Source of the DNA: Halogeometricum rufum
GTDB lineage: Archaea > Halobacteriota > Halobacteria > Halobacteriales > Haloferacaceae
DNA length: 64,000 bases
Reading direction: 5' to 3'
Assembly (NCBI RefSeq): GCF_900112175.1
Contig: NZ_FOYT01000001.1
Coordinates: forward strand, 186,001-250,000
The translations under genes were made by a program, and so were the position numbers. Of this stretch, positions 29,215-34,173 are shown piece after piece. The notes under the pieces were generated by a model that made no database searches, was not told the origin of the DNA, and saw only the letters and a program-made list of their open reading frames with translations. Numbering within the stretch: the stretch's first letter is position 1; each line of letters opens with the position of its first letter.

Positions 29215-29344
29215 ACCGCTCTCGGTCTCGACGCTCCACCGCGCTCCCTTTCCCCTCTCACATCTCCGAGCGACGGCGTTCCGATCCGTCGAGTGTCTCT
29301 CGCGGCACCGACTGTTAATGTCTCTGCGCACTAACAGGTCGGGC

Positions 29345-29701
29345 ATGTCGTCGCGCATCGACACCGCCTCGCTCACGACGGTGCACTACGTCGGTATCGC
29401 CCTCGCCGCCCTCTCGGGCGTCGTCCACCTCGTCCTCGGCGTCGCCGCCCTCCCGTCGGCGTTCGGCGTCTCCTTTCTCGTCGCCACAGTCGGGTTCGCC
29501 GTCGGCGTCGCCATGGTGGTCCTGAACGTCCGCCGCCGACTCGCGTACCTGGTCGGTATCCCGTTCGTCCTCGGACAGGTCGCCATCTACGCCGTCACGG
29601 TGGTTCAGGGACTGAACCAGCTCTCTCCGGTCGCCGTCGTCGACAAAGTCGCCCAACTCGCCCTCGTCGGCGTCCTCGTCGTCCTCCTCCGGCGCGACTA
29701 G
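29345..29701 (+). CDS. four-helix haloarchaeal membrane protein
   Basis: A 118-residue protein with about four membrane helices; it begins MSSRIDTASLTTVHYVGIALAALSG and ends LALVGVLVVLLRRD. The regular HYVGIALAALSGVVHLVLG first helix recalls haloarchaeal small membrane families of unknown role. The ATG at 29345 follows the promoter-like stretch TTAATG (29312-29317). Its TAG stop shares a CTAG with the TAG stop of the convergent CDP-alcohol transferase gene (29698-29701). Confidence 0.68.
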   Translation: MSSRIDTASLTTVHYVGIALAALSGVVHLVLGVAALPSAFGVSFLVATVGFAVGVAMVVLNVRRRLAYLVGIPFVLGQVAIYAVTVVQGLNQLSPVAVVDKVAQLALVGVLVVLLRRD

Positions 29702-30537
29702 GGGAACGGGCGCTCCCGCCGGCCCGAGACGACGAACCAGTCGCGGAGGAAGTTCCCGAGGAACGGGAGCATCGTCGCCGTCGCCAGCGTCCACGCGGCC
29801 CAGCGCGGAACCACCGGCGCGAGCGCCACGGCCGTCGTCGCCATCTGCACGCCCGCGAGGACGCGACGGGGGGTACTGTGCGGGAGTTCGAAGACGGGAA
29901 GCCCCCGCCGCCGTCGCACCCGTTCGCCGAGGAGGAACAGGTAGCGGGCGACGCCGACGAGGAGGTACCACGGCGGGAGTGACCCCGCGACGACGCCGAC
30001 GAGGGCGGCGACGAGGAGTCCGGCGGCGTCGACGTTCATATCCAGCGACGCCCCGAGGAGCGTCGTCCGGCCGCGCAGACGGGCGATGGCGCCGTCGAGG
30101 GCGTCGAGCGCCGCGACGGACCCGTAGAGGAGGGCGGGGAGCCAGCCGAACGGCGTCGGGACGACGAGCAACCCGGCGAGGAAGGCGACGAGTGCGCCGC
30201 GGCAGAGCGTCACCGCGTTGGCGACGCCGAGCGACTCGAACGCTCGACGTCCCTCGGCCGGGCGGTTCCGGTCGGTGCGCAGTCCGGCGAATCCGACGAC
30301 GGCGGCCACCCCCGACGCCGCGACGACGGCCCACGGGAGTCCCGCGCCCGGCACTCGACGCTCGCCGACGACGGCGACGACGGCGGTACACGCGGCGAGT
30401 CCGACGCCGAGGGAGAACAGTTGTCGGGTCGTTCGTCGGGCGCCCGCGCCGGTACCGGACTCCGCGCTGGTACCGGACGGCGCGTCGGCACCGGCGTCCG
30501 CGTCGACGCCGGGCGTCACTTCGGCCTCGTCGCTCAC
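29698..30537 (-). CDS. CDP-alcohol phosphatidyltransferase family protein
   Basis: A 279-residue membrane enzyme. The family motif D-x2-DG-x2-AR-x8-G-x3-D-x3-D is matched exactly by DALDGAIARLRGRTTLLGAS followed by LDMNVD. The last Asp is the catalytic base of the transfer from a CDP-activated donor to an alcohol. There are about seven membrane helices and a hydrophilic, Asp/Thr-rich N-terminal tail. Acceptor (glycerol-phosphate, serine, inositol-phosphate) cannot be read. Start is GTG 30537, with upstream in-frame sequence not helix-like. Divergent from the pterin/MDR cluster. Confidence 0.88.
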   Translation of the reverse strand: MSDEAEVTPGVDADAGADAPSGTSAESGTGAGARRTTRQLFSLGVGLAACTAVVAVVGERRVPGAGLPWAVVAASGVAAVVGFAGLRTDRNRPAEGRRAFESLGVANAVTLCRGALVAFLAGLLVVPTPFGWLPALLYGSVAALDALDGAIARLRGRTTLLGASLDMNVDAAGLLVAALVGVVAGSLPPWYLLVGVARYLFLLGERVRRRRGLPVFELPHSTPRRVLAGVQMATTAVALAPVVPRWAAWTLATATMLPFLGNFLRDWFVVSGRRERPFP

Positions 30538-30585
30538 GGTCCAGCGTAGGACCCGTGCGATGGTGAACGTTCCCCCGCGCGACAG

Positions 30586-30591
30586 TTTTAC
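30586..30591 (+). promoter_or_regulatory. promoter box of the MDR dehydrogenase unit
   Basis: CAGTTTTACC (30583-30592) precedes ATG 30616 by about 28 bases. The same core CAGTTTTAC occurs again 29 bases before the PTPS gene (31688-31696). Confidence 0.5.
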
Positions 30592-30615
30592 CCCGTCGCC
30601 GTCGTCAGTTTGGGT

Positions 30616-30678
30616 ATGACTCGACCGACAGCGGACGGAACCGCGCCGCACTCGCCTCTCCCGGGCGTGCACACGTGA
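30616..30678 (+). CDS. possible 20-residue leader peptide overlapping the MDR gene
   Basis: ATG 30616 opens a 20-codon frame (MTRPTADGTAPHSPLPGVHT) whose TGA overlaps the GTG start of the following dehydrogenase in GTGA (30675-30678). The promoter box at 30586 places the likely transcript start at or very near this ATG, so a leaderless message would translate it first. It may be a coupling leader peptide or merely chance; no similarity is recognised. Confidence 0.35.
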   Translation: MTRPTADGTAPHSPLPGVHT

Positions 30679-31685
30679 CGGGCGCCAGACGAGTGCGGTT
30701 CACCGGTCCGCGCTCCGTCGAGGTGGCGAGGGAGCCGGTTCCGTCGCCGGACGACGGCGAGGTGCTGGTGGAGACGTCGACGTCGGCGGTGAGTCCCGGC
30801 ACCGAACTCCTCGTCTACCGCGACGAGGTGCCCGACGACACGCCCCTCGACGAGACGATAGACGCGCTGAACGAACCGTTCGCCTATCCTCTCTCGTACG
30901 GGTACGCGGCCGTCGGCGTCGTCGCCGCCGTCGGCGACGCCGTGGACCCCTCGTGGGCGGGCCGGCGCGTCTTCGCCTTCCACCCGCACGCGAGTCACTT
31001 CTGCGCCGACCCGGCGTCGCTCGTCCCCCTGCCGGACGCCCTGTCCGACGAGGACGCCGCGATGCTGGCGACGATGGAGACGGCGACGGGGTTGGTGATG
31101 GACGGCCGGCCGCGCGTCGGCGAACGCGCCGCCGTCTTCGGGCAAGGCGTCGTCGGCCTCGTCACCACCGCGTTGCTGTCGCGGTTCCCCCTCTCGGAAC
31201 TGGTCACCGTGGACTGCCACGCGCCGCGTCGCGAGCGGTCGCGTTCGCTCGGCGCGGACGCGTCGTTCGCCCCCGAGGAAGTGCCGGGAGCCGTCACCGA
31301 CCGGTTCGCCGGCGACGGGCGCAGCGACCTCTCCTTCGAACTCTCGGGGAACCCCGACGCCCTCTCGGACGCCCTGTCGACCACCGGCGACGACGGCCGC
31401 CTCGTCGTCGGGTCGTGGTACGGCGAGAAACGCGTCTCGCTGGACCTCGGCGGGCGGTTCCACCGGAGCAAGATACGCATCCGGTCGAGTCAGGTCAGCC
31501 GAATCGACGCCGACCACGCCGGCCGGTGGGACAAGGACCGCCGTCTGGACTACGCCCTCGATGCCCTCGCGGACCTCGAACCGTCGTCGCTCGTCACTCA
31601 CCGGATTCCGGTCGCGGAGGCGGCCGACGCCTACCGGTTGCTGGAGCGAAACCCCGCGGCCGTGCAGGTGTTGTTCACCTACTGA
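30675..31685 (+). CDS. MDR-family dehydrogenase lacking zinc ligands
   Basis: A 336-residue medium-chain dehydrogenase/reductase. The N-terminal catalytic domain begins with VRFTGPRSVEVAREPVP and has TSAVSPGTELLVYR where zinc enzymes have a Cys-containing G-x-C-G-S-D, so the catalytic zinc ligand is missing, and no four-Cys structural zinc lobe is seen. This resembles BchC-type and other zinc-free MDRs. The nucleotide-binding segment is AAVFGQGVVGLVTTALL (GxGxxG, about residues 153-169) with LVTVDCHAPRR after it, where an acidic residue suggests NAD. First gene of the PTPS-GT4-methyltransferase cluster. Confidence 0.83.
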   Translation: MTGARRVRFTGPRSVEVAREPVPSPDDGEVLVETSTSAVSPGTELLVYRDEVPDDTPLDETIDALNEPFAYPLSYGYAAVGVVAAVGDAVDPSWAGRRVFAFHPHASHFCADPASLVPLPDALSDEDAAMLATMETATGLVMDGRPRVGERAAVFGQGVVGLVTTALLSRFPLSELVTVDCHAPRRERSRSLGADASFAPEEVPGAVTDRFAGDGRSDLSFELSGNPDALSDALSTTGDDGRLVVGSWYGEKRVSLDLGGRFHRSKIRIRSSQVSRIDADHAGRWDKDRRLDYALDALADLEPSSLVTHRIPVAEAADAYRLLERNPAAVQVLFTY

Positions 31686-31690
31686 CCGCA

Positions 31691-31696
31691 GTTTTA
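31691..31696 (+). promoter_or_regulatory. internal promoter box before the PTPS gene
   Basis: TTTTAC at 31691-31696, preceded by CAG, is 26-31 bases upstream of ATG 31722, only a few bases after the MDR stop codon. It is the same core as the promoter of the MDR unit. Confidence 0.45.
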
Positions 31697-31721
31697 CGGC
31701 ATCGCCGGCCGATTACCGGGT

Positions 31722-32099
31722 ATGTACGCCGTCACCGTCGTCAGACCGCTCGTCGCGCAGCACGCGCTGACCGTCCCGGACCCCGGCCCGGAGGGGGACC
31801 CCCACTCGCACCGCTACCGCGTCGAGGTGGAACTGACGGGCGAGGCGCTGAACGAGTACGACTACCTCGTCGACATCGACGCCGTCGAGGCGGCGCTGGA
31901 CGGCGTGGAGTCGCGGTACGCGGACGCGTTCCTGAACGACCTGCCCGAGTTCGAGGGGTACAACCCGAGCGTCGAACGCTTCGCGCGGGTGATTCACGAC
32001 CGACTCGCCGACGAACTCGCCGCCGACGCGGTGGCCGAGACGACGGTCACCGTCTGGGAGGACGACGTCGCCAACGCCGCCTACACCGCACCGCTCTGA
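31722..32099 (+). CDS. 6-pyruvoyl-tetrahydropterin synthase/QueD family protein (Glu variant)
   Basis: A 125-residue COG0720 enzyme. Zinc-binding histidines are H14 (AQHALT) and H28, H30 in HSHRYRVEVEL. Four residues before H28, where QueD and PTPS have the catalytic Cys, this protein has E24 (GPEGDPHSH), the substitution described for the PTPS-III type, which in some organisms converts dihydroneopterin triphosphate to 6-hydroxymethyl-dihydropterin. The C-terminal VTVWEDD contains the pterin-anchoring Glu. QueD normally acts in queuosine or archaeosine synthesis, but no queC or queE is near. It overlaps the GT4 start (TGATG). Confidence 0.88.
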   Translation: MYAVTVVRPLVAQHALTVPDPGPEGDPHSHRYRVEVELTGEALNEYDYLVDIDAVEAALDGVESRYADAFLNDLPEFEGYNPSVERFARVIHDRLADELAADAVAETTVTVWEDDVANAAYTAPL

Positions 32100-33289
32100 T
32101 GCGCGTCGCCCTCGTCGTGCCGGGGTCGGTGGACGCCACCTCCGGCGGGTTCGCCTACGACCGGGCCCTCCTCGAGGAACTCCGCGCGGCGGGCGACGAG
32201 GCGCGCGTCGTCTCCGTCCCGTGGCGACGGTATCCGCTCGGCGTGGTCGACGCACTCTCGACGCCGCCCCTCGGCGACGCGGACGTGGTTCTCGCCGACG
32301 AACTCGCCCACCCCGCGCTCCTCCGCCTCGACGCCGACGCGCCGGTGGTCGCCCTCGTCCACCACCTCCGCTGCGACGCCACCGAGGGCCTCCCTGCCGC
32401 CGTCGCGCGGACGCTCGAACGGCGGTTCCTCCGCGGGTGCGACGCGGCCGTCTGCACGAGTCGGGCCACCGCGCGGTCGGTCGAACGCCACGCTCCCGGC
32501 CTGCCGACGCACGTCGCCCCGCCGGCCGACACGCAGTTCGACCCCGCGGTGACGGCCGACGAGGTGGCCGAACGCGCCCGCGAGGACCCGTTCCGCGTCG
32601 CCTTCGTCGGCAACCTCGTCCCGCGGAAGGGCGTGCTGACGCTCCTCGACGCCCTCGCCCGCCTCGACGCCGGGGGCTCCGCCCCCTCGTGGCGCGCGAC
32701 GTTCGTCGGCGCACACGCAGACGAGACGTACCTCCGGCGCGTCCGCGACCGAATCCGGCGACACGGCCTCGGCGACGCAGTCCGTCTGTCCGGGTCGCTC
32801 CCAACCGACGAGACGGCGGCCGTCCTCCGCGAGAGCCACGTCTACGCGATGCCCTCGACCCACGAGGGGTTCGGCATCGCCTACCTCGAAGCGATGGGGT
32901 TCGGCCTCCCCGTCGTCGCCTCGGCGTCCGGCGGCGCCTCGGACCTCGTGGACGGCGAGGCGGGCGTCCTCGTGGACCCGGGGGATGCGGCGGCCGTCGG
33001 CGACGCACTCGCCGGGTTCGCGGCCGACCGAGAGCGTCTCGCGGCGGCGGGGCGGGCGGCACTCGACCGCTACCGCGCGCACCCGTCGTGGACCGAGACG
33101 GTGGCCGACCTCCGAGGATTCCTCGGGGACGTCGCCGCGATGGGGGCCGAGGCGACGGCAGACGACGAGGAACGAACGGCAGACGACGAGGAACGAACGG
33201 CAGACTGCGACGAGGCGAGGCCGGACACCGACGGGGCGACGTCGGACGCCGCGGGTCACCGGCGGACCCGCGCGGAGGGGGAGCGATGA
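32099..33289 (+). CDS. GT4 family glycosyltransferase
   Basis: A 396-residue GT-B fold enzyme. The C-terminal domain has FVGNLVPRKGVLTLLDAL (about residues 168-186) and the family E-x7-E signature in STHEGFGIAYLEAMGFGLPVVAS. The N-terminal domain is MRVALVVPGSVDATSGGFAYDRALL. Retaining transfer from a nucleotide or phosphate sugar is expected; the acceptor is unknown. The last ~50 residues are an acidic, poorly conserved tail with two exact copies and part of a third of a 21-bp unit encoding ADDEERT. ATG 32099 overlaps the PTPS stop; its TGA overlaps the methyltransferase ATG (ATGA). Confidence 0.9.
   Translation: MRVALVVPGSVDATSGGFAYDRALLEELRAAGDEARVVSVPWRRYPLGVVDALSTPPLGDADVVLADELAHPALLRLDADAPVVALVHHLRCDATEGLPAAVARTLERRFLRGCDAAVCTSRATARSVERHAPGLPTHVAPPADTQFDPAVTADEVAERAREDPFRVAFVGNLVPRKGVLTLLDALARLDAGGSAPSWRATFVGAHADETYLRRVRDRIRRHGLGDAVRLSGSLPTDETAAVLRESHVYAMPSTHEGFGIAYLEAMGFGLPVVASASGGASDLVDGEAGVLVDPGDAAAVGDALAGFAADRERLAAAGRAALDRYRAHPSWTETVADLRGFLGDVAAMGAEATADDEERTADDEERTADCDEARPDTDGATSDAAGHRRTRAEGER
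33155..33203 (+). repeat. 21-bp tandem repeat in the GT4 tail
   Basis: The unit ACGGCAGACGACGAGGAACG(A) occurs at 33155-33175 and 33176-33196, and begins a third time (ACGGCAGA at 33197). It encodes repeated TADDEER residues in the acidic tail, so copy number changes would keep the frame. Confidence 0.8.
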
Positions 33290-34173
33290 AGGGGGACGAC
33301 CGGCGCTACCTCCTCGCGAAGGAGACGGTCGACGACCGAGCGTTCGACCCCGGCGTCCGCCGACGCGTCCGGACGGACCTCGCCGGGCGGTCCGGCGACG
33401 TTCGCCTCCTCGACGCGGGCGCCGGGACGGCCCCGTTCCTCCGCCGTCTCCTCGACTGGCCGGACCCGCCGGACCTGACGTACGTCGCCGTCGACGCCGA
33501 CGCCGACGTCCTCCGCCTCGGCCGCGACCTGACCGCGGCGGCGGCGCGGGACCGCGGGTGGGCCGTCTCGGACGCCGGCGTCTTCGACGGACCGGGCGAG
33601 ACGGTGGGGTCGCTGTCGCTCCGCGGCGAGAGTGCGATAGACGCCCGGTTCGTCCGCGGCGACGCCCTCGACGCCGCCGACGCGGGCGGGTGGACGTTCG
33701 TCCTCGCGCAGGCGTTCGTGGACCTACTCGGACCGGCGGGCGTCGACCGACTGCTCGACGGCCTCGACGCTGGCGGTCGGTTCTCCTTCCCCATCACGTT
33801 CGACGGCGGGACGGCGTTCTCCCCGTCCCACGAGGCCGACGACGAGGTTCTCTCGGCGTACCACGACACCATGCGCGGCGACGACCGACTGGGGTCGCGG
33901 GCGGGCCGCCGACTCGAACGCCACCTCGGCCGGCGCGGCGTCGAGTTCGTCGCCGCCGACGCCGACTGGGCGGTTCGTCCGGTCGACGGCGCGTACCCGG
34001 CGGACGAGGCGTACTTCCTCCGCGTCATCGTGGACACCGTCGCCGACGCGGTTTGGGGGCGGGTCCCGCCGGCGACGAGGACGGCGTGGCACGCCGCACG
34101 CACGGCGCAACTCGACGACGGGCGACTCGGGTACGACGCGCACAACCGGGACGTGACCGGCCGCATCGACTGA
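33286..34173 (+). CDS. class I SAM-dependent methyltransferase
   Basis: A 295-residue protein with motif I VRLLDAGAGTAPFLRRLL (about residues 39-56), the acidic strand YVAVDADADVLRL, and a post-II FVLAQAFVDLL stretch. The C-terminal half (TMRGDDRLGSRAGRRLERHL, WAVRPVDGAYPADEAYFLR) is not typical of the well-known families, so the substrate cannot be named. The ATG overlaps the GT4 stop (ATGA), a clear sign of coupled translation. Last gene of the MDR-PTPS-GT4 cluster, which suggests methylation of the same product. Confidence 0.85.
   Translation: MKGDDRRYLLAKETVDDRAFDPGVRRRVRTDLAGRSGDVRLLDAGAGTAPFLRRLLDWPDPPDLTYVAVDADADVLRLGRDLTAAAARDRGWAVSDAGVFDGPGETVGSLSLRGESAIDARFVRGDALDAADAGGWTFVLAQAFVDLLGPAGVDRLLDGLDAGGRFSFPITFDGGTAFSPSHEADDEVLSAYHDTMRGDDRLGSRAGRRLERHLGRRGVEFVAADADWAVRPVDGAYPADEAYFLRVIVDTVADAVWGRVPPATRTAWHAARTAQLDDGRLGYDAHNRDVTGRID

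Follow-up and report, generated by a model that had tools for sequence, protein, structure and literature searches.

Among known systems, the orphan cluster that surrounds SCO6650 in Streptomyces comes closest to the block described here. In it, a divergently transcribed CDP-alcohol phosphotransferase gene precedes genes for an MDR dehydrogenase, a PTPS-like protein, a GT4 glycosyltransferase and a methyltransferase, and SCO6655, a GCH II, is also part of it. Expression of SCO6655 has been reported to be anticorrelated with the flux predicted for it (PMC2853524). Among the literature searched, no paper that describes this cluster was found. Precedent for secondary metabolism that starts from GCH II and RibD and involves a methyltransferase is provided by the toxoflavin and pseudoiodinine clusters, in which RibD is described as a deaminase; unlike the block studied here, the genes given for them do not include a PTPS-like protein, an MDR dehydrogenase, a GT4 glycosyltransferase or a CDP-alcohol phosphotransferase (PMC9911603). 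Further points of comparison are the COG0720 enzymes (QueD and PTPS-I to PTPS-III) and the archaeal entry into riboflavin and F420 synthesis (ArfA-ArfB-ArfC), whose first steps are probably common to the present pathway.

The stretch of DNA analysed (hereafter the window, 64,000 nucleotides) belongs to a haloarchaeal genome of 4.19 Mb, and its core block comprises the following features:

29698-30537, minus strand: CDP-alcohol phosphotransferase, divergent partner gene (279 aa; PF01066, 2.5e-15)
30538-30674, no strand: divergent intergenic region with a TATA-like TTTTA (30586-30590) and a 20-codon micro-ORF, read from the sequence
30675-31685, plus strand: MDR dehydrogenase, BchC/sorbitol-dehydrogenase-like (GTG start, 336 aa; PF00107, ADH_zinc_N, 5.6e-9)
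31722-32099, plus strand: PTPS-like T-fold protein, non-canonical (125 aa; PF01242, 1.3e-25)
32099-33289, plus strand: GT4 glycosyltransferase (396 aa; PF00534, Glycos_transf_1, 2.3e-32)
33286-34173, plus strand: class I SAM-dependent methyltransferase (295 aa; motif I and fold match)

A preliminary description of this locus had reported four consecutive genes on one strand with short overlaps, and the open reading frames confirm this arrangement, with overlaps of 1 nt (TGATG) between the PTPS-like and GT4 genes and 4 nt (ATGA) between the GT4 and methyltransferase genes. The four-gene cluster is therefore real, but its partner had been overlooked: the CDP-alcohol phosphotransferase gene, which shares its upstream region with the MDR gene and is transcribed divergently from it, belongs with the block. 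Position 30586, given earlier as the start of the cluster, is not a coding start and falls on the TATA-like TTTTA that precedes the MDR gene. This motif lies ~26–30 bases 5′ of the micro-ORF, which begins with ATG at 30616, runs for 20 codons and ends in a TGA that overlaps the MDR start as GTGA (window 30586-30678). The same architecture, with differing peptide sequences, is found in four other loci (L023-L026) and perhaps reflects a leaderless transcript with coupled re-initiation. A gene for a small DUF7475 protein (29318-29701) recurs close to the block at 16 loci from haloarchaea, while the downstream TusA and SQR genes are not generally conserved neighbours across relatives' loci. Within the window, no cyclohydrolase, creatininase or flippase-like gene stands beside the block.

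Comparison of gene order across the haloarchaea revealed that homologues of these genes are not scattered. Within the family, 49 of 60 genomes have a relative of the PTPS-like protein, and the gene occurs in 114 of 194 genomes of the haloarchaeal class, representing 45 of 65 genera. Among 79 haloarchaeal loci, which share descent and therefore do not count as independent events yet span many genera and families, the MDR gene lies immediately upstream of the PTPS-like gene in 66, the GT4 gene immediately downstream in 49, a methyltransferase gene downstream in 52 and a CDP-alcohol phosphotransferase gene within 8 kb in 47. Of these associations, that of MDR with PTPS varies least, and it is retained in several haloarchaeal loci without GT4. 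The gene order recurs in haloarchaea, Actinomycetota and Proteobacteria far above chance, upholding the earlier view that the four genes form one conserved pathway block. A sulfatase-like gene (weak PF00884 match, under the cut-off) lies directly 5′ of MDR in L149 (6979-7848) and in a haloarchaeal group (L241-L249).

Scanning a genome collection with the SCO6650 sequence returned at least 80 loci, those listed all being from Streptomyces. The divergent CDP-alcohol phosphotransferase followed by MDR-PTPS-GT4-methyltransferase, as in the window, was exact in 71 loci of Streptomyces, made up of plasmid L145 and 70 of the 80 from the scan, within a full pattern that reads, with strands in brackets, CDP-alcohol phosphotransferase (−), MDR (+), PTPS-like (+), GT4 (+), methyltransferase (+), flippase-like (+), creatininase (−) and RibA (+). 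MDR-PTPS-(GT4)-methyltransferase blocks were also found on annotated plasmids of Thiodictyon, Methylosinus, Rhizobiaceae, Rhodobacterales and Microbacterium, most of which also carry RibD-family, GCH II or CDP-alcohol phosphotransferase genes. Eight further actinobacterial loci have the order RibD-MDR-PTPS-GT4, with RibD immediately 5′ of MDR, and one locus (L212) combines a Streptomyces-like order with GCH II and RibD. Identity between the bacterial and window proteins is 34–38% for MDR, 28–31% for GT4 and 28–29% for the PTPS-like protein, the methyltransferase being more distant. Two matches from small actinobacterial genomes (L214 and L215) were rejected as cluster members, as they encode a conventional QueD (C, HGH, DH). 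On two Streptomyces plasmids (L156 and L157), PTPS-like genes stand near MEKHLA-domain and cupin genes without other cluster genes, so the PTPS-like protein is found outside the cluster too. A cytochrome b561 gene lies within or at the edge of proteobacterial blocks (L146, 11528-12085; L153, 10011-10544; L161, 10055-10582), which hints that the product might act in membrane redox reactions.

The search for a GTP cyclohydrolase near the homologues, suggested in the preliminary description, was successful, but what it found were riboflavin-type enzymes. GCH III (ArfA, recognised from sequence) is encoded near the PTPS-like gene in 30 of the 79 haloarchaeal loci, 23 of which have it just upstream on the same strand, and arfA is absent within 8 kb in the other 49. 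In the bacterial clusters the enzyme is GCH II, and the accompanying genes include one of the creatininase family and one for a RibD reductase that stands alone, although RibD is missing from the majority of Streptomyces clusters. A type I cyclohydrolase was found neither among the annotated cluster genes nor in the gene families that recur next to the block. At the switch position, Met occurs in each of the 75 GCH II proteins from Streptomyces clusters, and Tyr in the housekeeping copies that were checked in two Streptomyces genomes. Spoonamore and co-workers reportedly found in 2006 that SCO6655, owing to its Met switch, goes no further than the formyl compound FAPy, and a creatininase-family gene would thus be expected with Met-type but not with Tyr-type GCH II. 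This prediction holds, with such a gene in 75 of 75 Met-type loci versus 0 of 5 Tyr-type loci (L153, L154, L161, L211 and L212). A creatininase-family protein has been proven to deformylate the FAPy intermediate, and GCH III yields the same formyl compound (PMC9478397).

The window genome itself encodes a single ArfA, three creatininases and a GCYH-IB/MptA-type cyclohydrolase, and RibD_C matches one of its proteins strongly and a second weakly; neither GCH I nor GCH II was found in it. Its arfA gene (contig position 1580422) is on the same contig as the block but 1.36 Mb away, and arfC is likewise not linked to the block; the substrate is therefore deduced from relatives. ArfA is also an enzyme of riboflavin and F420 synthesis, and its neighbourhood could therefore reflect general flavin supply. 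Compared with the SCO6650-SCO6655-type cluster, the haloarchaeal blocks share a FAPy-type start, but the FAPy-forming cyclohydrolase is GCH III, often in the cluster, rather than GCH II, and in the window none is linked. The window block is thus a variant rather than a strict member of the SCO6650 type.

The PTPS-like protein retains the zinc-binding histidines H14, H28 and H30 and the glutamate E113, has E24 in place of the catalytic Cys and has lost the Asp-His pair. In an alignment of 40 haloarchaeal copies, H14, H30, E24 and E113 are invariant and H28 nearly so. Bacterial cluster copies have Ala at the Cys position, and one bacterial branch has also lost the third zinc histidine, so that the three histidines and the Glu set the window protein apart from its SCO6650-type counterparts. 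The catalytic Cys four residues before HxH is absent from the cluster copies and the Asp-His pair is missing from all aligned copies displayed, yet E113, the anchor for a 2-amino pterin-like ring, is invariant. The closest solved relative is SCO6650 (3d7j), both by sequence and by model (pLDDT 80, TM 0.86), and the NCBIfam QueD score is 48.5 bits against a cut-off of 89.25. In a phylogenetic tree (few bacterial QueD, a short alignment with few columns, and long branches flagged), the cluster proteins of both domains form one group (99/94) apart from 13 QueD, a further likeness between the window block and the SCO6650 type. The T-fold, the anchor Glu, the zinc histidines of the haloarchaeal copies and their Glu for Cys, the latter a hallmark of PTPS-III, are shared with the QueD and PTPS-I to PTPS-III enzymes; the lost Asp-His pair and the lack of adjoining queuosine, archaeosine or folate genes are not. 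The window genome has a separate QueD (C-x3-HGH, DH) encoded beside queC and queE on another contig, and a QueD role for the PTPS-like protein was rejected on this basis. The earlier remark that no queuosine or archaeosine genes are present thus applies near the locus but not to the genome, which carries queC-queE-queD elsewhere.

These features bear on the route by which a pterin might be made. A type I cyclohydrolase could supply dihydroneopterin triphosphate to the PTPS-like protein, with MDR reduction, glycosylation and methylation leading to a tetrahydropterin glycoside. The COG0720 fold, the GCYH-IB/MptA-type cyclohydrolase of the genome, and the three zinc histidines with Glu at the Cys position fit such a route, as the same Glu in the Plasmodium PTPS yields 6-hydroxymethyl-dihydropterin from dihydroneopterin triphosphate (PMC2229834). 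However, the bacterial copies have Ala at this position and mostly lack the third zinc histidine as well, the Asp-His pair is gone throughout the copies displayed, and the cyclohydrolases that accompany the clusters, GCH III and GCH II, give (formyl)aminopyrimidines. Dihydroneopterin triphosphate is therefore unsupported as the substrate, the earlier assignment of it on the basis of COG0720 membership is probably wrong, and we consider the tetrahydropterin glycoside route improbable.

The MDR protein has its nearest solved relatives in butanediol and sorbitol dehydrogenases, and its best NCBIfam match is BchC (1.4e-16, far under its cut-off). In the displayed haloarchaeal and bacterial copies, the His of the GHE motif is replaced by Tyr (GY, Y77) and the Cys motif reads SPGTE, making the annotation 'zinc-binding' a misnomer. 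The GT4 protein has the motif EGFGIAYLE (E-x7-E) and solved relatives that include MshA-type and phosphatidylinositol mannosyltransferases; its C-terminal extension, missing in relatives' alignments, contains a perfect 21-nt direct repeat (33155-33205, TADDEER repeated). Neither Pfam nor NCBIfam gave a match for the methyltransferase, but its motif I (LLDAGAGTAPF) and a low-confidence model (mean pLDDT 66) match class I SAM methyltransferases, and LLDAGAGT and D70/D72 are shared with the Streptomyces copies. A PDB sequence search gave no match for the CDP-alcohol phosphotransferase, whose motif is complete (D145-x2-D148-G149-x2-A152-R153-x8-G162-x3-D166-x3-D170) and kept in haloarchaeal and bacterial copies.

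Taken by themselves, the GT4 glycosyltransferase, CDP-alcohol phosphotransferase and methyltransferase might make a lipid-linked glycan for the cell surface, with the PTPS-like protein and cyclohydrolase as bystanders. The resemblance of GT4 to phosphatidylinositol-mannoside and MshA enzymes is in keeping with this, as is the presence of CDP-alcohol phosphotransferase, LPG_synthase_TM, MdoH-like and sulfatase-like genes in some clusters. Such a glycolipid block is nevertheless very unlikely, since MDR-PTPS is the pair that persists where GT4 is missing and since the linkage to RibD and GCH II in separate lineages would be left unexplained.

The RibD-family proteins of the bacterial clusters match RibD_C alone and have no deaminase domain; the 2-amino group of the substrate should therefore remain, in agreement with the conserved anchor Glu. 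This also bears on whether the pathway leads to a modified flavin, lumazine or F420-like compound, with the PTPS-like protein acting on a riboflavin or deazaflavin intermediate that the other enzymes decorate. ArfA, GCH II, creatininase and RibD are flavin/F420 supply enzymes, arfA adjoins the block in many relatives, and the Streptomyces cluster has a gene for an F420-dependent oxidoreductase in its vicinity. Flavins, however, lose the 2-amino group that the deaminase-free RibD proteins and the invariant Glu appear suited to keep, and the annotations of the clusters include neither a lumazine or riboflavin synthase nor CofG/CofH, making a flavin-type product a distinctly unlikely outcome. The distribution of the block is also patchy in the haloarchaea, unlike that of an essential pathway.

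We therefore favour the reading that the block converts a ring-opened, riboflavin-type GTP precursor to a decorated product (probability about 0.6), and propose that it is the late part of a biosynthetic pathway common to haloarchaea, Actinomycetota and Proteobacteria. The product is probably sugar-decorated, membrane-linked and GTP-derived, with the ring opened as in vitamin B2 synthesis rather than by the classical pterin route. From the observed gene content, gene order, linkage to riboflavin-type cyclohydrolases and loss of canonical catalytic residues, we infer every reaction after the formamidase, the order of substrates, the lipid link and the product. GTP would be opened as in riboflavin synthesis, by ArfA (GCH III) with a creatininase-family formamidase or by GCH II, giving 2,5-diamino-6-ribosylamino-pyrimidinone phosphate, which a RibD/ArfC-type reductase without a deaminase domain would convert to the ribitylamino form with its 2-amino group kept. 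In the window genome, these early steps would be provided by the unlinked arfA, arfC-like and creatininase genes. The MDR dehydrogenase could then oxidise the ribityl C2′ to a 1′-amino-2′-keto intermediate, the same intermediate at which GCH I arrives via an Amadori rearrangement. The T-fold PTPS-like protein might hold the 2-amino-4-oxopyrimidine via E113 and promote closure with the 5-amino group to a dihydropterin phosphate. GT4 and the methyltransferase would decorate the dihydropterin and the CDP-alcohol phosphotransferase would link it to a membrane lipid. The ring-closure chemistry assigned to MDR and the PTPS-like protein, proposed by analogy, is doubtful when taken alone, and the absence from MDR of the zinc ligands that sorbitol dehydrogenases use counts against its step. 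The complete GCH I-independent sequence, from riboflavin-type opening through RibD/ArfC reduction, MDR reoxidation at C2′, closure by a PTPS-like protein without its triad, glycosylation and methylation to lipid attachment by the CDP-alcohol phosphotransferase, is likewise a tentative scheme that we hold to be unlikely as a whole. Of the modified pterin pathway first suggested for this locus, a conserved glycosylated and methylated GTP-derived metabolite is retained and the dihydroneopterin triphosphate route is not, a pterin end product being possible by a different route.

The database names '6-carboxytetrahydropterin synthase' and 'zinc-binding alcohol dehydrogenase' cover genes without the defining residues of those enzymes. 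The occurrence of an equal gene order in two domains, with unrelated first-step enzymes, indicates that the pathway must make something useful. If the product is a lipid-linked pterin-like compound, GTP-derived metabolites would gain a new class, and the pterin ring would be accessible by a second chemistry.
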